A DNA stretch of 64,000 nucleotides from Curtobacterium flaccumfaciens. GTDB taxonomy: Bacteria; Actinomycetota; Actinomycetes; Actinomycetales; Microbacteriaceae. The position numbers and the translations under genes were made by a program. This document shows positions 17,432-25,893 of the stretch, piece after piece. The notes below the pieces were generated by a model, which did not search any database, was not told the origin of the DNA, and was given only the letters and a program-made list of their open reading frames with translations. The stretch spans positions 310,001-374,000 of the forward strand of contig NZ_SNVW01000002.1 in the NCBI RefSeq assembly GCF_004361695.1, read 5' to 3'. The first letter of the stretch is position 1. The number at the start of each line of letters is the position of its first letter.

Positions 17432-20029
17432 TCAGCCGCGCCCCCGCGCCAGGGCGACCGCCTGTCGGAGCGACAGGTCCGGCAGGTAGGCGCGCACCAC
17501 CGCGATCCCGATCGCCGGGAGCGCGACCGGGTCCGGGTAGGCGAGCACCAGCGGGTGCAGCTCGGGGCCGAACTTCAGCTTGAACTTCAGCAGCGACCGG
17601 AAGCCGTAGACGGGCTCGAGCACCCCGCCGACCAGGTCGAGGAGGTCCTGCACGCCCTCGTTCGCCGGCGCGGTGTCGGGCGCCTGCGCCAGCGGTGCGG
17701 CGGAGAGGCTGAGGCGTTCGACGCCGTCCTCGCGCATCCGTTCCGCGGCGCTCGCGACGAGGAACTCCATCACCCCGTTCGGTGCGGCGCCGGTGCGACG
17801 CATGACGTCGAGCGTCCAGCCGACGACGCGGCCCTCGCGGTGACTCGGCAGCCAGCTGGTGACGGCCAGCACGGTGCCGGCCTCGTCCTGCGCGACGAGG
17901 GTCCGGACCGCCGGGTCCCGCATCTCGTCGACCCCGCCGAGGGTGAAGCCCATCTCGGGCAGCTCGCGTTCGGCGACCCATTCCTCGGAGATCGCCTCGA
18001 TCTGCCGGGTCGTCGAGCTCGGCAGCTGCTGCCACGACGACCAGGTCGCCGTGATGCCCTCACGCTTCGCCTTGTTCACCGAGGTCCGGACGTCCTGCTT
18101 CTTCTTGCCGCTCATCGTCCACGTGCGCGGGTCGAAGTCCGCGTCCTCGGCGACCGGCAGCGTGCCCCAGCCCTGCTCCGTGAGGGCGCCGGCCTCGTCG
18201 GCGCCGATCCCGTAGAACACCGCGGTCCAGCCGTTGTCGTCGCACCAGCGGGCGAACGCCGTCATCGCGTCGGCACGGGCGTCCGGCCAGCCGAAGGGCC
18301 CGCCGACCGTCACCGCGACCCGGCCGTTGCGGCGGAACGCGACCGCTGCGCGACCGTCGTCGGCGAACCAGTAGGCGTTGCCGTGCCACGTCGTCATCCA
18401 GCCGAAGGCGTCGCCGCCGCCGGCCTCGAGCAGGGCGCGGGCGCGTTCGCGGTCGTGGCGGGTGCCGTCCGGGTCGGCGTCCGGTTCGACGGCGCCGGTC
18501 GGCCGCACGGACGCCAGGGCGATGACGAACCAGAGCACCGGTCCGGCCAGGCCGAGGACGATCCGCAGCATCGGGTGCAGGGACGGCAGGCGGTCCCAGA
18601 AGGTGACCGGGGAGAGCGGACCGAGGGCGGCGACGGCGAGCCGGAGCGGGTCCTCGACGTGCTGGGGCGCGGACGCCGCGGTCACCAGCACGACCGCGAC
18701 GATGACGACCAGGGCCGACCCGACCGTCACCGCGAAGCTCACCACGCGGCGGCGCGAGGCCAGCACCGTGAAGGACCGGCGGAGCACCACCAGCACGACG
18801 GCGGTCGCCAGGGGGACGACGATCGAGGCGGCGATGGACAGGTCGACGATGAACTGGTCCTCGGTGCCGTGCAGCCGTTCGACCCGGCCGGGCACGGCGC
18901 CGTAGGTGACCGCGGCGGCCACCGCGGTGACGACGTCCACCACGACCACGAGCCACACGGCGAACCGGCTGCCGCGGAACAGCCCGAGTCCCGCGACGAC
19001 GAGCACGAGCAGCGGGGCCGCCGCCAGCACCACCGTCCAGGGGTCGGTCGCGCGGTAGGCCAGGAGCGCACGCAGGCACTCCCCCGCGATGCCGTCGGCG
19101 CGGCAGCCGTGCACCGGGGTCACCGGTCCGGCGCCGACCACGGCGGCGAGCGGCGCGAGGATCCCGACCCGGGCGCGGGAGACGAGGGCGATCACCGGGC
19201 CGACGGCCGACACGAGCACCACGGTGCCGAGCAGGACCCGGGTCTCACGGTGCGAGCTCCGGAGCCAGCCGTTCCGCTTCGGGGTGCGGCGGAGCAGTTC
19301 GCCGAGCAGCCAGCCGGCACCGGCGGCCAACACGGCGTAGAGGTCCGAGGCGTGCCCGGCGTACAGCAGCAGGGCGGCCACCACGGCGAGCGCGTTCACC
19401 CGGATCCGGCGTCGCCACAGGGGTCCGGCGAAGGCGCTCGCGGTGACGATCGTGCCCACGATGGCGGTCCACGGGTCGAAGCTCGTCGCCCGTCCGAGGA
19501 GCAGCGGTCCGACGTCGCGCCCGTCCGAGTCGACGAAGGCGCTCAACGCCCCGATGCCGGTGCCGACCACGGTCGTGACGACGAACGCGACCGCCGTCCG
19601 CCACGAACCCATCAGGCGCTCGGCGGCACCGACGAGGACGACGACGCCGGCGAGGGTGAGCAGGAGCGCGAGGACACCGGTCGAGGCGGCGAACACCCGG
19701 AACGGGCCGTAGGAGACCGGACCGGTGCCGTGCACCACGCGGAGGACGACGGCGGTCGCCGAGGTGGCGAGCACGAGGACGAGGATCGCGGTCGTGACCG
19801 GGTGCCGGCGGACCGTGCGCGCGACGGCGCGCCAGGCGTTCCGCTTGCGGGAGGGTTCGGGTGCCGCGGGGCGCGGGGCACGGGGCGGGGCCCCGGACCC
19901 GGACGCGTGCGGCTCGGACGCACGCTGCCCAGACGCGGGCTGCCCGGGCGCGCGCGGGTCGGGCGCGTGCGGGTCGGGCGCGGACGCGTTCGGGTCGGAC
20001 CCCGTCGTCCCCGGGCCGGTCTCGGTCAC
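17432..20029 (-). CDS. MprF/LysX-like phosphatidylglycerol lysyltransferase (DUF2156), membrane protein
   Basis: An 865-residue integral membrane aminoacyltransferase. After a Pro/Ala-rich N-terminus (residues 1-65) there are many hydrophobic helices, matching a flippase-like domain. From about residue 520 is the soluble DUF2156 catalytic domain, with ALLEAGGGDAFGWMTTWHGNAYWF, GRVAVTVGGPFG, MSGKKKQDVRTSVNKAKREG and FRSLLKFKLKFGPE. Relatives transfer lysine or alanine from tRNA to phosphatidylglycerol and so lower surface charge and resist cationic peptides; the amino acid used is not readable. GTG 20029 overlaps the upstream esterase stop as GTGA and follows AAGGGA, so the two genes are coupled. 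Confidence 0.85.
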   Translation of the reverse strand: MTETGPGTTGSDPNASAPDPHAPDPRAPGQPASGQRASEPHASGSGAPPRAPRPAAPEPSRKRNAWRAVARTVRRHPVTTAILVLVLATSATAVVLRVVHGTGPVSYGPFRVFAASTGVLALLLTLAGVVVLVGAAERLMGSWRTAVAFVVTTVVGTGIGALSAFVDSDGRDVGPLLLGRATSFDPWTAIVGTIVTASAFAGPLWRRRIRVNALAVVAALLLYAGHASDLYAVLAAGAGWLLGELLRRTPKRNGWLRSSHRETRVLLGTVVLVSAVGPVIALVSRARVGILAPLAAVVGAGPVTPVHGCRADGIAGECLRALLAYRATDPWTVVLAAAPLLVLVVAGLGLFRGSRFAVWLVVVVDVVTAVAAAVTYGAVPGRVERLHGTEDQFIVDLSIAASIVVPLATAVVLVVLRRSFTVLASRRRVVSFAVTVGSALVVIVAVVLVTAASAPQHVEDPLRLAVAALGPLSPVTFWDRLPSLHPMLRIVLGLAGPVLWFVIALASVRPTGAVEPDADPDGTRHDRERARALLEAGGGDAFGWMTTWHGNAYWFADDGRAAVAFRRNGRVAVTVGGPFGWPDARADAMTAFARWCDDNGWTAVFYGIGADEAGALTEQGWGTLPVAEDADFDPRTWTMSGKKKQDVRTSVNKAKREGITATWSSWQQLPSSTTRQIEAISEEWVAERELPEMGFTLGGVDEMRDPAVRTLVAQDEAGTVLAVTSWLPSHREGRVVGWTLDVMRRTGAAPNGVMEFLVASAAERMREDGVERLSLSAAPLAQAPDTAPANEGVQDLLDLVGGVLEPVYGFRSLLKFKLKFGPELHPLVLAYPDPVALPAIGIAVVRAYLPDLSLRQAVALARGRG

Positions 20030-21372
20030 AGCGATCCCTTCGTCGCCGGCAGCCCGAGGTGCGCGATGACCGCGGGGAGGCCGTGGGACAGAACGTAGCG
20101 CACCGTGTTCCAGTCGTGGGCGGACCCCGGGGACACGATGAGCGCCGTCTGCATCCCGACCCGTTCGGCGACCGCACGGAGCGCGTCCGTCGAGGCGTGG
20201 TACGGCGCGTCGTCCTGGCCGTACCCGAAGACGGTGAGGTGGTGCGGGTAGTGCCCGTGCGCCGTCATGATCGCGGCCGGTGCCGCGGCCCGGTACGCCG
20301 CCGCCGACCCGCCGAACCCGAGCGCGATGGTCTGCTGGACGCTGCCGTTCCGGGGTCCGGGCTCGCTCGAGATCGCCAGCGTGGTGCCGAACACGTCGGG
20401 GTGCGCGGCGGAGAACTGCATCGCGCAGGTCGCCCCCTCGGAGAACCCGACGACGCCCCACGCGCTCGGCGCGCTCGCGACCGGCAGGTGCTGCCGGATC
20501 CACCGCACGGTGTCGGTCATGACGTAGGTCGCACTCCGACCGAGCCGCCGGGAGTCCACGCACATCGGGTTCCGTTCGGGCGCGCCGAGCTGGTCGGGCG
20601 CCACGACGATCGGGGCGAGCCCGTCGTGCGTCTCGGCGTAGTGCTCGAGGTACTGGCCGAGGTCACCGGTCTGGAACATGTCGGCCGGCTGCCCGGGCTG
20701 GCCGGACAGCGACACGAGCACTGGCAGCTTCGGCGGGTGCGCGGTCCGGGCCGCCGGCGGGAGCCAGACCACGGCCTTCCGGGCGTGGAAGTGGGACACC
20801 GTCCCCGGGATCCGGACGCTGATCGTCTCGCCCTCGCGCGGCATCCCGGCGGGCGCGTGCCAGTCGGCGGGGTCGACCTCACCGTTCCCGACGCCGCGGT
20901 GGGGCGTGGAGATCGTCCGCGTCGGGTACGGGTTCGTCGCGACCGCCTGCTCGACGTTCTTGTAGAAGCCGAAGTCGACGTTGACGCCGAGGCCGGCGGC
21001 CAGGGCGACGCACGCGGCTGCCCCGAGCGCGACGACGCGCAACGTCCAGCCGCCCTGCACCAGCACGACCACGAGCAGCGCGATGCCGGCGCAGGCGAAG
21101 GCGATCCACATGCGGGTCACCGGCGTGAACGACACCCCGAACAGGTCGAGCACGTCGCCCGTCCACCACACCGCCACGAGCCCGGCGCCCGCGCCCACCA
21201 CGAGCGCGGCGACCCGGATCACGACGGCTCGGACGGGATGTCCCCGTCGCCGGTCGCCCCGGTGCAGGAGTGGTGCGAGGACCACCCAGACGGTGAGCAC
21301 GAGGGCGATGGCGTCGACGGGGACGAGGACGTCGCGCCCGGTGATCGGGATGCGCAGGAGGTCGTGGAGCAC
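20026..21372 (-). CDS. Membrane-anchored alpha/beta-hydrolase (esterase D/antigen 85-like)
   Basis: A 448-residue protein with about four N-terminal membrane helices (to residue 150) and an extracytoplasmic alpha/beta-hydrolase domain. The nucleophile elbow is GFSEGA, with likely His in SAHDWNT and Asp in GYGQDDAPY. Such esterases paired with MprF-like genes are thought to act on lipid or wall esters; one role could be removing aminoacyl groups, but this is inference. GTG 21372 has CACGAT six bases upstream, a possible leaderless -10. It overlaps the lysyltransferase by four bases, so they form a two-gene operon. Confidence 0.82.
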   Translation of the reverse strand: MLHDLLRIPITGRDVLVPVDAIALVLTVWVVLAPLLHRGDRRRGHPVRAVVIRVAALVVGAGAGLVAVWWTGDVLDLFGVSFTPVTRMWIAFACAGIALLVVVLVQGGWTLRVVALGAAACVALAAGLGVNVDFGFYKNVEQAVATNPYPTRTISTPHRGVGNGEVDPADWHAPAGMPREGETISVRIPGTVSHFHARKAVVWLPPAARTAHPPKLPVLVSLSGQPGQPADMFQTGDLGQYLEHYAETHDGLAPIVVAPDQLGAPERNPMCVDSRRLGRSATYVMTDTVRWIRQHLPVASAPSAWGVVGFSEGATCAMQFSAAHPDVFGTTLAISSEPGPRNGSVQQTIALGFGGSAAAYRAAAPAAIMTAHGHYPHHLTVFGYGQDDAPYHASTDALRAVAERVGMQTALIVSPGSAHDWNTVRYVLSHGLPAVIAHLGLPATKGSL

Positions 21373-21552
21373 GGTCTCATCGTGGCCGTACCCCGCTGCC
21401 GGGCAGCCCCGGAGGCGCTTCTGCTGTCCACAGGTTCACCACCGACTGCTCCCAGACGGCCATCAGCGTGTGTCCAGCTCAGCTCGGCTCAGCTCAGCTC
21501 GCGGTACCGGTGGGGCGGTGCCGGTGCGGCTGGGCCGGCTGTGCGCGCGCAC

Positions 21553-21593
21553 GGGTCGGAGGGGCACCCGGATCCGGTGCCCCTCCGACCCGC
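21553..21593 (-). terminator. Strong stem-loop after the chaplin-like gene
   Basis: Seventeen-base perfect arms CGGGTCGGAGGGGCACC (21553-21569) and GGTGCCCCTCCGACCCG (21577-21593) around a seven-base loop, 15 bases downstream of the stop at 21608. The preceding gap 21373-21552 also has CAGCTCAGCTCGG-like short repeats and no gene. Confidence 0.85.
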
Positions 21594-21607
21594 TGTGACC
21601 GCGGTGG

Positions 21608-23329
21608 TCAGTGCCGCTTGCGCAGCACCATCGTCCCCGCTCCGGCGAGCAGCAGGAGCAGGGCGAACCCGGCCGGCAGGACCGGCGAGCTCGCTCCCGT
21701 GTAGGCGAGCCCCGGGGCGGCCGCGCCGGCCGCGGCGCTGGCCGCCGTCTGTGCGACCGTCGAGACACCGGCGGTCATCGCGTCGGCGGTCACGGCCCGG
21801 GAGGCAGTGGTCGCCACGACCGCGGCGGCACCGGTGACCGGGGTGGTCACCGAACCGGGCGTGGTGCCGTCGCCGACACCGGTTCCGGTGCCGGGGGTGC
21901 TGGTGCCGTCACCGGGCGTGGTGCCGTCCCCGGGGTCGGTCCCGTCACCGGGGTCCGTGCCGTCACCGGGGTCGGTGCCGTCACCGGGGTCGGTGCCGTC
22001 CCCGGGGTCCGTGCCCGTGCCCGGGTCGGTCCCGGTGCCGGGCGTGGTGGTGCTGGTGCCGTCGCCGACGATGCCGATCCCGTTGCCGCCGATGGTCACC
22101 GGCAGGCTGATCACCGGGGTGAGCTGGGTGCCGGAGAGGAGTCCACCGTCACCCGAGGTCGAACCACCAGCTGCCGGGGTGGTCGACCCCGTGCCGATGC
22201 CGGTCGCCGGGGTCGTCGACCCCGTCGAGGTCCCGTCACCGACGAGGCCGATGCCGTTCCCGCCGATCGTGATCGGGACGGAGATCACCGGAGTGACCTG
22301 CGTGCCCGACGCCGTGCCGTCCGACCCCGAGGTCGAACCACCAGCAGCAGGGATGGTCGTACCGGTGCCGGTGCCGGTCGCCGGGGTCGTCGCCCCGGTC
22401 GACGCGCCGTCGCCCAGCACGCCGATGCCGTTACCGGACACCGTCACCGGAACGGAGATCACCGGAGTGACCTGCGTGCCCGACGCCGTGCCGTCCGACC
22501 CCGAGGTCGAACCACCAGCAGCCGGGGTGGTCGTGCCGGTGCCGGTGCCGGTTGCCGGGGTCGTCGACCCCGTCGAGGTCCCGTCACCGAGCAGCCCGAT
22601 GCCGTTGCCGGACACCGTCACCGGGATCGACACGACCGGCGCGACCTGCGTGCCGGAGGCCGTCCCGTCCGAGCCCGACGTCGTCGGAGCCGAAGCCCCG
22701 GCAGCCGGCGCGGAGGACGCCGACGTCGCCGGAGCAGCCGCGGCCGCAGCCGGCGCGGAGGACGTGGCATCCCCACCGACGGCGATCGCGTTGCCGGTCG
22801 CCGTGACCGGAGCGGTCACATCACCGGCGACCTGCGTGCCCGAGGCCACCCCGTCCGACCCGGAGGTCGTCGGCGCAGCGGCGGTCGGAGCAGCGGCCGG
22901 GGCAGCAGCGGCAGGAGCGGCAGGAGCCGCGGAAGCCGAGGTCGACGTGGCGTCCCCACCGACGGCGATCGCGTTGCCGGACACCTGCACGGGAGCGGCG
23001 ACCTGCGGCACGACCTGCGTGCCCGAGGCGACCCCGTCCGACCCGGAGGTCGAGGGTGCTGCGGCCGGGGTAGCCGGCGTGGATGCGGGAGCCGCCGGCG
23101 CCGGAGCGCTCGTGACGGCCGACGTGACCGACGACACCGCGTCGCCGAGCACGCCGAGCGCGTTGCCGGACGCCGACACGGGGACGGAGACGGACGGGGC
23201 AACCTGTGTGCCCGAAGCGGTGCCGTCCGCGCCGGAGGTCGTGGCCGCGTTCGCAGCACATGCCCCTCCGAGCGTCAGCCCGCCGACGAAGAGGGTGAAC
23301 CACAGCCCTCTCGAGACGTACTTGTTCAT
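21608..23329 (-). CDS. Wall-anchored protein with seven chaplin-like repeats and LAXTG sortase signal
   Basis: A 573-residue surface protein. Residues 1-28 are a signal peptide (cleavage after ANA). Seven repeats follow, each about 32 residues, built on DGxASGTQV-x-PVxVPVxVSGNxIxVxGD, matching the chaplin domain (DUF320) of Streptomyces hydrophobic surface proteins but lacking the paired cysteines. Ala/Pro- or Thr/Gly-rich linkers separate them. A run of TDPGDG units (about residues 430-475) forms a stalk. The end is LAYTG, a hydrophobic helix and RKRH, the class E sortase LAXTG signal. GAGGAACGACC precedes ATG 23329. It should coat the wall surface and alter hydrophobicity or adhesion. A secreted partner gene lies just upstream. 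Confidence 0.88.
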   Translation of the reverse strand: MNKYVSRGLWFTLFVGGLTLGGACAANAATTSGADGTASGTQVAPSVSVPVSASGNALGVLGDAVSSVTSAVTSAPAPAAPASTPATPAAAPSTSGSDGVASGTQVVPQVAAPVQVSGNAIAVGGDATSTSASAAPAAPAAAAPAAAPTAAAPTTSGSDGVASGTQVAGDVTAPVTATGNAIAVGGDATSSAPAAAAAAPATSASSAPAAGASAPTTSGSDGTASGTQVAPVVSIPVTVSGNGIGLLGDGTSTGSTTPATGTGTGTTTPAAGGSTSGSDGTASGTQVTPVISVPVTVSGNGIGVLGDGASTGATTPATGTGTGTTIPAAGGSTSGSDGTASGTQVTPVISVPITIGGNGIGLVGDGTSTGSTTPATGIGTGSTTPAAGGSTSGDGGLLSGTQLTPVISLPVTIGGNGIGIVGDGTSTTTPGTGTDPGTGTDPGDGTDPGDGTDPGDGTDPGDGTDPGDGTTPGDGTSTPGTGTGVGDGTTPGSVTTPVTGAAAVVATTASRAVTADAMTAGVSTVAQTAASAAAGAAAPGLAYTGASSPVLPAGFALLLLLAGAGTMVLRKRH

Positions 23330-23415
23330 GGTCGTTCCTCACTGATCGAGATCGTTGGCCGACCGCGATGGCGGCCGGAGGTGCGTGCCTGCCGTGGCGG
23401 ACAGGCGCACCGATC

Positions 23416-24750
23416 TCAGTCAGGGGCGACGTCGTGCTCGCCGACGACCGATGCGGGGACCGCGTCGTCGGAGAGGGTGCCGCGTGACCCCGCGGCGAGG
23501 GAGATCTGTCCGCCGGTGGAACCGACGATCCCGACGGCTGCTGCCGAGCCGGTCGAGCCGGAGGCGCTGCTGCCGAGGACGCCCGCAACCGGGCCGTCGA
23601 GCGGGCCGTCGCCGTGGCCGGTGCCGCCGCCCCGGGGGACGAGCAGAGCGCGGCCGCCGACGGTGGCGTCCTGTGCGGCAGCGTCGGCCCGGAGGACCCG
23701 GTCGCCAGCGAGGACCGTCGCGGCCTCGGAGGACACGGCGTCCGTGCGCGCGACACTCACGTCCGCCGCGACGGCGCTCGAGCCCGGAGTCTGCGCCGCG
23801 GACGCGTCCGGACGCACGCCGGCGGATGCCGAACCGACGGGGGCAGTGGAGCCGCCGCCCACCGGGGTGCCGGGGACGTCGACGACGGGATCCGTGCCTC
23901 CAGGCAGGCCGCCGCCCACGACCGGGGGCAGACCGGCGACCGCGTCCGGGACGGACCCGACGACGGAACCGACGCCACCGAGCGTGTCGTCGACCAGTCC
24001 GGTGACCGGACGGGTGACGGTGCCGAGGGTGTCGTCCCCGAGCACGGTCCCGAGGACCGGCAGGCAGCCGACGACCTGGTCGAGGGTGCCGACGACGGTG
24101 GTCACCGGGCGTGCTCCGGTGAGGTGCTCGACGGCTCCCGTGACGGGGCGGAGCACGGTGACGAGGGTGTCCGTGACGGGCCTGGAGGCGCTGCTCGCCT
24201 CGGTCCCGTCGGCTGCGGTCGCAGGGGTGGCCGGGGTGGTCCCGGTGGCCGGCTGCTGGCCGCCGGTGGCGCCGGTCGGCGCACTGCCGGTGGGTGCTGC
24301 GGGGGTCGTCGCGGGCGCCGGAGCCGGTGCCGCGGGGGCGGGGCTCGACGGGGCCGGGGACGATGCTGTGGGGGCGGGTGCCGCGGGGGCTGCGACCGGG
24401 GCCGGAGCTGCCGGAGCCGGGGCTGCCGGTGCTGCCGGAGCCGGTGCTGCCGGAGCGGGCGCTGCCGGAACGGGAGCCTTGGGCGGTGCCACTGCCGTCC
24501 GGACCGGGTCGACGGCCCGCTCGACGACGTGTCCGACGCCGCTCGTGACGCCCTGCACGGTGTCGCCGAGACCGTGCACGAGCCCGCCGACGAGCCCACG
24601 CTGCTGCGACGGCTGCGGATCGGACGTCGCCGCGGAGGCCGGACGGGCGCCGAGCACGAGGGTGAGCAGCACGAGGGCCGCGGCGACGACGATGCCGTAC
24701 AGCGCGTACCGGGTCATCGCGCGCCAGGGTGCGCGCAACGGCTGGTCCAT
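23416..24750 (-). CDS. Secreted Ala/Pro-rich protein, partner of the chaplin-like gene
   Basis: A 444-residue exported protein with a signal segment at residues 12-40 (YALYGIVVAAALVLLTLVLG, then ASA). A Gly/Val segment with LVGGLVHGLGDTVQGVTSGVGH follows, then a long Ala/Pro linker, then a second Gly/Val-rich region (VVGTLDQVVGCLPVLGTVLGDD) with the only mature cysteine. The tail is Gly/Ser/Ala-rich. No sortase motif or membrane anchor is seen at the end. The Shine-Dalgarno AGGAGGTGA before ATG 24750 is the strongest in the window. It lies 86 bases upstream of and in line with the chaplin-like gene, so the two are probably expressed together as surface components. I recognise no enzymatic domain. 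It also carries an 18-base half copy of the dispersed palindrome (23889-23906). Confidence 0.7.
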   Translation of the reverse strand: MDQPLRAPWRAMTRYALYGIVVAAALVLLTLVLGARPASAATSDPQPSQQRGLVGGLVHGLGDTVQGVTSGVGHVVERAVDPVRTAVAPPKAPVPAAPAPAAPAPAAPAAPAPAAPAPVAAPAAPAPTASSPAPSSPAPAAPAPAPATTPAAPTGSAPTGATGGQQPATGTTPATPATAADGTEASSASRPVTDTLVTVLRPVTGAVEHLTGARPVTTVVGTLDQVVGCLPVLGTVLGDDTLGTVTRPVTGLVDDTLGGVGSVVGSVPDAVAGLPPVVGGGLPGGTDPVVDVPGTPVGGGSTAPVGSASAGVRPDASAAQTPGSSAVAADVSVARTDAVSSEAATVLAGDRVLRADAAAQDATVGGRALLVPRGGGTGHGDGPLDGPVAGVLGSSASGSTGSAAAVGIVGSTGGQISLAAGSRGTLSDDAVPASVVGEHDVAPD

Positions 24751-24861
24751 GCGCTCACCTCCTGATCTCGGCTGCGCACGTAGAGTGGTTGACCGGCACG
24801 GTACGCCCGTCCACGCCAGAACGCACCAGGTTTCTCAAGAATTCGTCAGGAAAGGCCGGTC

Positions 24862-25293
24862 TTGGTCTCGATCTTCAACGCTCCGACCCGCAATACGGAC
24901 ATCGTCACGCTGCACGAGATCCTCCGCCTGCGGCAGGACGTCTTCGTCGTCGAGCAGGGGTGCGCGTACCCCGACATCGACGGCCGCGACCTCGAGCCCG
25001 GCACCGTCCAGTTCTGGGCCGGGCAGGGGTCGGTCGACGCCACGCTGCGACTCCTCCGCGAGCCCGACGGCACCGAGCGCATCGGCCGGGTCGCCACTGC
25101 TCGGGCCTCCCGTGGTCAGGGTCTGGCTGCGCAGCTCATCGAGGCCGCGATCGCCGAGTCCCGATCTGCGCGCATCACGATCGACGCGCAGGCGCACCTC
25201 GAGCAGTGGTACGGCCGGTTCGGGTTCGTGCGCTCCGGTGAGGACTTCGTCGAGGACGGGATCACGCACCTCCCGATGACCCGCACGCGCTGA
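24862..25293 (+). CDS. GNAT N-acetyltransferase, ElaA family
   Basis: A 143-residue GCN5-related acyltransferase. The ElaA-type opening LRLRQDVFVVEQGCAYPDIDGRD is clear; the acetyl-CoA loop is represented by ARASRGQGLAAQLIEAA (Q/RxxGxA form), and the end has HLEQWYGRFGFVRSGEDFVEDGI. The substrate of ElaA proteins is not established. The start is read as TTG 24862 with AAAGG six bases upstream. The gene is divergent from the secreted protein gene across a 111-base gap. Confidence 0.88.
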   Translation: MVSIFNAPTRNTDIVTLHEILRLRQDVFVVEQGCAYPDIDGRDLEPGTVQFWAGQGSVDATLRLLREPDGTERIGRVATARASRGQGLAAQLIEAAIAESRSARITIDAQAHLEQWYGRFGFVRSGEDFVEDGITHLPMTRTR

Positions 25294-25365
25294 GGCGCGG
25301 CACCAGCCGGGCGCACGGGGTCGGTCAGGCGCGCGCCAGGCGCGAAGTCGGTCGCGCGCGCTCGG

Positions 25366-25893
25366 TCAGGCGCGCCAGCGGCGGAGCTCGTCGAACGAGC
25401 GTCCCTGGTGTGCCCGGTCGGCGACGAGCCGTTCGAACACGATGTTCGTCTGCGTCGTCGCCACCGACGGGTCCCCGCTCAGCTCGTCGGCGACGAAGTC
25501 CCGGAGCTGCTCGGTCGACGTGCAGGCGATGTGCACGAGGAAGTCCTTGTCGCCCGCCAGGAACGACACGTCCTGCACGACGGGCACCCGCAGCAGGCGC
25601 TTCGCGAAGTCCCGGAGCTCGTGCCGGGCGGCGGCGTGCACGCGCACCGAGACCATCGCCTCGATCGCGAACCCGAGCCGGGCGACGTCGACCTCGGCGC
25701 GGTACCCCCGGATGACCCCGGCGTCCTCGAGCGCCCGCACCCGGGTCAGGCAGGTCGACGGGGCGATGCCCACCGCGGCGGCGAGCCGGTTGTTCGGGAT
25801 CCGGGCGTCGGCCGCGAGCGTCCAGAGGATCCGCTCGTCGACCTCGTCGAGGCGCGGGGCGGGATCGGGGCGGCGGACGGGGCGTTCGGACAC
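25366..25893 (-). CDS. Lrp/AsnC-family transcriptional regulator
   Basis: A 175-residue feast/famine regulator. The winged HTH is LDEVDERILWTLAADARIPNNRLAAAVGIAPSTCLTRVRALEDAGVIRGYRAEVD (residues about 15-70), followed by the RAM amino-acid-sensing domain (AIEAMVSVRVHAAA...DVSFLAGDKDFLVHIACTS). GTG 25893 has TAGCGT six bases upstream (minus strand), a leaderless arrangement. The target genes cannot be deduced; a TetR gene lies upstream on the same strand. Confidence 0.92.
   Translation of the reverse strand: MSERPVRRPDPAPRLDEVDERILWTLAADARIPNNRLAAAVGIAPSTCLTRVRALEDAGVIRGYRAEVDVARLGFAIEAMVSVRVHAAARHELRDFAKRLLRVPVVQDVSFLAGDKDFLVHIACTSTEQLRDFVADELSGDPSVATTQTNIVFERLVADRAHQGRSFDELRRWRA

Follow-up and report, generated by a model that had tools for sequence, protein, structure and literature searches.

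A conserved gene pair encoding a chaplin-like repeat protein with a sortase signal and its upstream partner, probably coupled by an intercistronic RNA element

The window, by which we mean the whole 64,000-nucleotide stretch of DNA analyzed here (nearest named relatives, Curtobacterium), carries a conserved two-gene unit whose genes are separated by an intercistronic RNA element. With a probability of roughly 70%, we read this unit as a surface-coat cassette in which a partner protein and an anchored chaplin-like repeat protein are translationally coupled by the RNA. Only the second gene figured in the original prediction, which described a seven-repeat chaplin-like protein with a LAXTG anchor; that observation proved correct, and its interpretation received partial support. 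What is new is the partner gene and the RNA element upstream, neither of which that prediction mentioned.

The repeat gene lies on the minus strand and encodes the following parts, in which repeats 1 to 7 were placed by the domains of an HMM built from Streptomyces-type chaplin domains and by repeat positions.

21608..23329 (-): chaplin-like repeat protein, 573 aa, with wall-anchor signal (ORF; PF03777; Streptomyces-type-only HMM)
23240..23329 (-): signal peptide MNKYVSRGLW...AANA, alike across genera (read from the sequence and its conservation)
23129..23242 (-): repeat 1, aa 30-67
22940..23053 (-): repeat 2, aa 93-130
22757..22870 (-): repeat 3, aa 154-191
22571..22684 (-): repeat 4, aa 216-253
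22397..22510 (-): repeat 5, aa 274-311
22223..22336 (-): repeat 6, aa 332-369
22049..22162 (-): repeat 7, aa 390-427
21905..22042 (-): TDPG/TDPGDG stalk, about aa 430-475 (five TDPGDG copies; GRAVY -0.36 over aa 430-540)
21611..21712 (-): LAYTG sortase signal, membrane segment and basic tail, aa 540-573 (NF058582)

The anatomy originally described was confirmed. The ORF is real, its seven repeats begin near the residues listed, the stalk contains its TDPGDG copies, and none of the seven repeats contains a cysteine; the sole cysteine of the protein, aa 24, is inside the signal peptide. The anchor is matched by NCBIfam NF058582, which describes LAVTG surface-protein anchors (29.4 bits, cut-off 27); the motif here is LAYTG. 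A sortase search had been proposed as a check on the prediction, and the genome does encode a class E sortase (NF033747, 221.9 bits, cut-off 160), together with two further sortases that are closest to class F, one of them below its cut-off. GRAVY values were 0.63 for the repeats, 0.75 for Streptomyces-type cores, 0.42 for the linker at aa 65-94 and 0.15 for the mature part, so that the protein is only modestly hydrophobic outside the repeats. AlphaFold modeled it poorly (pLDDT 57), with short strands in the repeats, and a Foldseek search of this model against the PDB gave nothing significant (best E 2.7 for FapC and 8.1 for CsgA). A Pfam GAF_2 match (17.7 bits, cut-off 28.6) was set aside as chance.

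Several other features of the locus are recorded here. The MNKYVSRGLW signal peptide is strikingly similar across genera over the first 30 codons of the repeat genes (loci L030-L109), for which an RNA or a targeting cause is possible. A long inverted repeat at 21552-21592, about 16 nt past the stop codon of the chaplin-like gene and without a T run after it, is perhaps the transcript end. A 512-aa open frame antisense to the gene, at 21807-23345 (+), probably mirrors its repetitive GC-rich codons. Two further ORFs follow on the minus strand, at 17432-20563 and 20026-21372 (-), and resemble by eye a lysyl-phosphatidylglycerol-synthase-type membrane protein and an esterase. No sigma-70-type promoter was found in 21300-25000, and a plasmid collection gave no match.

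The Pfam chaplin profile PF03777 (ChpA-C) matches the whole protein with an E of 2.7e-17 and 62.8 bits (cut-off 21), in seven stretches. Since this family may itself contain such relatives, we built a separate Streptomyces-type HMM from 25 chaplin domains of eight 7-10 Mb genomes, which had 6-15 matches each and were taken as Streptomyces from their content. This HMM scored the window protein at 28.1 bits (E 1.6e-7); its seven positive-scoring domains were the seven repeats, and an eighth domain, at -3.5 bits, fell outside them. The best of 2000 shuffled sequences scored 7.3 bits, and the reversed protein -31.4. Ungapped 24-aa repeat cores shared a mean identity of 39% with Streptomyces-type cores, compared to a mean of 12% and a maximum of 37.5% for shuffled repeats. 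Thus, with an HMM score beyond all 2000 shuffles and this core identity, the relation to chaplins exceeds mere composition, and the profile search suggested with the original prediction did recover the chaplin domain.

The likeness is partial. Of the 57 positions in the PF03777 profile, the best stretches cover no more than about 6-47. Among the matches listed, repeats of the window's genus scored 21-28 bits and ended at profile positions 45-54; Streptomyces-type domains, also among the matches listed, scored 71-105 bits, with one row at 43, and mostly covered positions of about 2-57. The profile end that the repeats lack is the site of the third GN motif and the second cysteine. The 25 Streptomyces-type domains average 3.04 GN motifs and 2.0 cysteines, and cysteine is present in 3 of the 564 repeats from 80 loci. 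Cysteine-less chaplins do occur in Streptomyces, ChpE being one. Another such case in Streptomyces is the C-terminal domain of ChpB, according to the available text of PMC13251363, which also describes a chaplin domain as having three GN motifs at intervals of 12-13 residues; the window repeats have one each. Long chaplins have two chaplin domains and about 225 aa in the available text of PMC8166509; the window protein has seven repeats and 573 aa, and shares with long chaplins the secretion signal, the LAXTG anchor and a class E sortase in the genome. Judged by their sequences, the repeats are shortened chaplin domains, which we call chaplin-like rather than chaplin proper because the defining features fail: two GN motifs, the cysteines and the profile end are missing. 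The chaplin identity originally proposed therefore stands for the profile match and falls short on these features. The repeats probably descend from the chaplin domain and may work like it.

Chaplins form the coat of Streptomyces aerial hyphae, and Microbacteriaceae mostly lack aerial hyphae; Curtobacterium, the host of the window gene, we take to be non-filamentous. At E<=1e-3, PF03777 matches 36 of 66 genomes in the genus, a count that is low because each repeat is scored alone. A model of the signal peptide plus first repeat (A3) matched 90 of 249 Microbacteriaceae genomes, in 36 of 85 genera; matches were strong (E<1e-15) in 71 of the 90, and weak ones may reflect the signal peptide alone, as in genome G568. 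In the window genome, all A3 matches among those listed fall within the 21608-23329 ORF. A3 also matched 50 of 297 Micrococcales genomes. Seven repeats, singled out in the original prediction, are not special: across 80 loci, some of them truncated at contig ends, repeat numbers range over 3-11, with 7 or 8 the most frequent. The occurrence of a shortened chaplin across a mostly non-aerial family points to another, perhaps older, surface use. A unicellular use had been called notable in the original prediction; a chaplin-like gene outside filamentous actinobacteria was already in print: the available text of PMC4255298 reports one in the rod-coccus, non-filamentous Arthrobacter chlorophenolicus and suggests that attachment may predate aerial growth. 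Among literature titles on chaplins in non-filamentous actinobacteria, Curtobacterium or Microbacteriaceae, or on Curtobacterium sortases, none concerned the window protein.

Directly upstream of the chaplin-like gene lies the partner gene.

23416..24750 (-): partner gene, 444 aa (ORF directly upstream of the chaplin-like gene; iterated HMMs)

Its product consists of a signal peptide, an A/P-rich linker, PVT..VDD blocks modeled as helices and a C terminus modeled as disordered, ending ...HDVAPD. Its AlphaFold model, of low quality (pLDDT 56), has a helix at the N terminus and further helices at 53-87 and 190-272, with little other structure. A Pfam search of the partner found no family, NCBIfam matches lay far below their cut-offs and were rejected as chance, and the best Foldseek match of the model in the PDB (EsxA, E 0.5) was not significant. 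We built iterated HMMs from the N-terminal, central and C-terminal parts, and these matched the ORF immediately upstream of the chaplin-like gene, in 76 of 80 loci and always on the same strand. Of the four misses, three are Cryobacterium loci (L064, L081 and L107) in which an ORF has a similar tail by eye, and one is at a contig edge (L103). A partner match was present in 73 of 249 Microbacteriaceae genomes, 71 of which also match A3 (hypergeometric p 1.2e-41, not corrected for relatedness); the two partner-only genomes have a match full of stop codons (G375) and a weak match (G415). An A3 match without a partner match was found in 19 of the 90 genomes.

The intergenic gap, 86 nt in the window and 80-132 nt across loci, is occupied by an RNA element of about 100 nt that spans the partner's last codons to the chaplin-like ATG.

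23327..23427 (-): RNA element, predicted three-way junction P1/P2/P3 (fold z -3.92; models R1-R3; pair counts)
23412..23424 (-): P1 5′ strand, the partner stop-codon region (predicted structure)
23380..23411 (-): P2 hairpin with a 3′ bulge (fold and A9 pair counts)
23359..23378 (-): P3 hairpin (fold and A9 pair counts)
23337..23353 (-): P1 3′ strand, the Shine-Dalgarno region of the chaplin-like gene (predicted structure)

In 95 of 95 elements (93 distinct), the predicted structure includes the 3′ end of the upstream gene and covers the ribosome-binding site of the downstream one. Mean predicted pairing was 0.95 for the stop codon and 0.78 for the Shine-Dalgarno sequence, which in the window is paired only in part (0.73 predicted). 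None of 4227 Rfam models matched at gathering in 21000-25500 or at E<=1 in 23300-23460.

Comparison across loci argues that this fold is strongly conserved. Two model-fitted alignments, A7 (35 rows from 36 chosen sources) and A9 (39 rows from 58), had 92.2% and 89.7% of cells paired; 26 of 31 pairs in A7 and 25 of 31 in A9 changed on both sides, and covariation was 0.581 in A7 and 0.611 in A9, with slid partners not exceeding 0.060 and 0.080, respectively. Because sources were chosen and cut-offs set after earlier searches, these pair counts lean toward the model. The A9 value for both-side changes was reached by 3 of 500 shuffles; the value of control (a) for the A7 and A9 pair counts is no probability. 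We excluded alignments A6 and A8 from the pair counts for false or opposite-strand rows. In A5, a model-free MAFFT alignment of Curtobacterium-type elements only, four of five measures were reached by no shuffle, and the fifth by 4 of 500; P1 shows no double change there, and its outermost pairs are often broken. Given A4, a MAFFT alignment that includes Leifsonia, RNAalifold predicted P1, P2 and a portion of P3 on its own; double changes affected 9 of the 21 pairs, one of them a P1 pair with four pair types.

P1 also emerged without an alignment. Over 84 loci, the stop region and the sequence before the ATG had a longest perfect match of 6.05 bases on average, compared to 5.13 with loci swapped and 3.72 when shuffled. 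P1 duplex energy (n=84) was -26.8 for a locus's own strands, -20.0 with a strand from another genus label and -15.6 when shuffled, the genus labels being hand-set, with some neighboring genera and unnamed Microbacteriaceae grouped; in one locus (L165) the energy was no better than with swapped strands. At least five expected P1 pairs were found in all 95 elements and in 153 of 475 dinucleotide shuffles. One identical pair is present in the 84-element set and two in the 95-element set. By energy per base, the element could not be distinguished from randomly drawn segments of these GC-rich loci, of which 24% were as low.

We searched for the element with three models. R1, trained on 26 Curtobacterium-type elements and run on 77 sources, matched 44 times at E<=0.01; 42 of these matches lay between the partner stop and the ATG and two elsewhere, and the 42 include five training loci or a copy (the window, L031-L033 and L025) and two loci counted twice (L055/L018 and L163/L119). 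In 297 Micrococcales genomes, R2 gave 25 matches in 24 genomes, all within the 50 with an A3 match; R2 training rows came from five of these 24 (the window, L101 and L163-L165). Every one of the 25 starts 8-9 nt ahead of the stop codon of a long ORF whose product ends in PD, PA or PG, and 24 end at the ATG of a signal-peptide gene; the exception (G073:297731) has a 69-aa ORF of no known kind downstream. Under strict filters, 26 of the 50 A3 genomes had no R2 match. R3 found the element in three of them (G322, G689 and G847), and strict filters therefore lose some elements. Across 394 genomes of the class, R3 matched 14, of which 13 are Micrococcales; we rejected the match outside that order (G990, E 8.6e-4) as weak and among unrelated ORFs. 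In one R3 element (G607) the downstream frame is only 33 aa. Eight Streptomyces-type loci (L110-L117) had no match to an RNA model, and two model searches found nothing in L189.

In some sister cassettes the repeats are replaced, and the partner tail and RNA are kept. The element precedes an acidic (VDD-type) repeat protein in three genomes (G639, G624 and G568), and the two of these proteins that we tested (L178 and L188) had no chaplin match; nor did the DVNLGNT repeats of the second G073 cassette. By eye, the repeats of other families resemble chaplins, and some have cysteines. We tested three of these (L181, L183 and L185): only L185 passes Pfam, and with the Streptomyces-type HMM all three score little above or below their own shuffles. 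We also noted by eye that the last repeats of L181, L182 and L183 have two cysteines with chaplin-like spacing and no GN, as if lineages had lost different chaplin features. Contig G073:C12 (L180/L190 and L198) carries two cassettes about 19 kb apart, one with the DVNLGNT repeats; in the other, only a 69-aa ORF of GRIGNWPDPM repeats lies downstream of the element. A fixed module of partner, RNA, signal peptide and anchor might drive exchangeable surface repeats across Micrococcales, with the RNA as a new licensing family that is possibly signal-responsive; we put this forward tentatively and think it rather doubtful.

Sequence shows the anatomy, the gene pair and, through covariation, the RNA fold; the shared mRNA, the coupling, the coat function and the role of the partner are proposed. 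In the reading that we prefer, the first gene would yield a secreted, partly helical, low-complexity partner, and the second a protein with a sortase signal whose repeats are descended from, or share ancestry with, the chaplin domain and lack the cysteine loop. The repeat protein would most likely form a β-rich surface layer that alters cell-surface properties, a function that we infer from the chaplin likeness, the anchor and the hydrophobicity of the repeats (GRAVY 0.63 against 0.75 for Streptomyces-type cores). A plain extended stalk or adhesin that forms no chaplin-like layer, its likeness to chaplins a leftover, is a serious possibility that falls short of even odds and is compatible with a coupling RNA. 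The loss of the cysteine loop and of two of three GN motifs fits such a stalk, as do the unrelated repeats of sister cassettes that keep the partner tail and RNA, but the window cores keep a hydrophobic, strand-forming pattern, seen in their GRAVY and in the short strands of the low-confidence model.

For the coupled coat cassette, we propose that the two genes share an mRNA, on which base pairing of the partner's last codons and stop to the repeat gene's ribosome-binding site would close the three-way junction. A ribosome at the partner stop would sit on P1 and melt the helix, allowing a second ribosome to start on the repeat gene. As P1 would be opened by the terminating ribosome, the repeat protein would be made mainly when the partner is. 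For a strongly conserved RNA without an Rfam match, this offers a testable rule: coat protein mainly when the partner is made. The available text of PMC7538156 gives gaps of <25 nt as optimal for coupling and describes the unwinding of a blocking structure as another mechanism. Simple re-initiation is therefore less likely across the 86-nt gap, which also counts against strong coupling.

Rather than being opened by translation of the partner, P1 might be set by a ligand, protein or small RNA acting at P2/P3, making the element a regulated switch that hides the ribosome-binding site; the surface coat would then follow a signal and not only partner translation. A three-way junction that holds the Shine-Dalgarno sequence is a known shape for translational switches, and P2 has a bulged A that is conserved in 81% of the 32 of 39 A9 rows having a base there. 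However, the hairpin loops are C-rich but variable in A9, and few unpaired positions are fixed beyond the stop codon, the Shine-Dalgarno sequence, the ATG and that one bulged A. This scarcity of conserved unpaired bases disfavors a ligand pocket, no pocket-like core is apparent, and, with no Rfam match either, we consider a switch unlikely.

Still less likely, in our view, is that the element acts on the mRNA, through decay protection, intercistronic cleavage or transcription attenuation, and so sets the ratio of the two proteins. Stable intercistronic stem-loops can act in this way, and fold z-scores ranged from -3.1 to -7.6 in all eight elements folded. Yet no T-run terminator was found in 21300-25000, and an action on mRNA leaves unexplained why a helix between the stop region and the Shine-Dalgarno region closes 95 of 95 elements.

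The partner C terminus also bears on the coupling. A PD end is present in 76 of 79 ORFs hit by the partner HMMs, compared to 8 of 5293 other ORFs of at least 100 codons, and residues further inside the tail (DD..P..P) are conserved too. In a number of loci the tail codons read CTCCTGACTGA, the reverse complement of the downstream TCAGTCAGGAG. The proline before the last residue is encoded by CCT in 45, CCC in 30 and CCG in none of 75 codons; in gene bodies, CCG is the commonest of 2360 proline codons (CCT 153, CCC 995, CCG 1156). In L187, L178 and L186, whose partners have Gly or Ala in place of the final Asp, the P1 pairing strand differs accordingly. Because of this codon use and the locus-specific pairing with the Shine-Dalgarno sequence, the tail is explained mostly by RNA, and we rejected the ...SPD/APD end as a protein sorting tag. 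That the near-invariant ...PD end is a protein signal and the RNA pairing its by-product, as the PD enrichment and the DD..P..P residues could suggest, is very improbable given the avoidance of CCG and the PA or PG ends of other families with a matching pairing strand. The conserved residues further inside may still be a protein matter. A near-invariant C terminus that is largely an RNA constraint is a warning for the reading of conserved operon tails.

Among known systems, ChpA-C of Streptomyces are alike in having a signal peptide, repeated domains that match the chaplin profile, a hydrophilic spacer, a LAXTG signal and a class E sortase in the genome. The window protein differs in its seven shortened repeats in place of two domains, each with one of three GN motifs and no cysteine, and in being encoded downstream in a gene pair that has a conserved RNA element, in a host taken to be non-filamentous. 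Arthrobacter chlorophenolicus also has a chaplin-like gene in a non-filamentous actinobacterium; the repeat anatomy, partner gene and RNA element are not among the features described in the available text (PMC4255298). CwpA and CwpB of Actinoplanes missouriensis are likewise hydrophobic surface proteins that depend on SrtE, but according to their authors, in the available text of PMC13251363, they have no chaplin domain, whereas the window repeats match the chaplin profile. In known coupling by unwinding, as described in the available text of PMC7538156, a ribosome on the upstream gene also opens a structure over the downstream start; what differs here is a conserved three-way junction that includes the upstream stop, spans a gap of 80-132 nt and recurs in several families.
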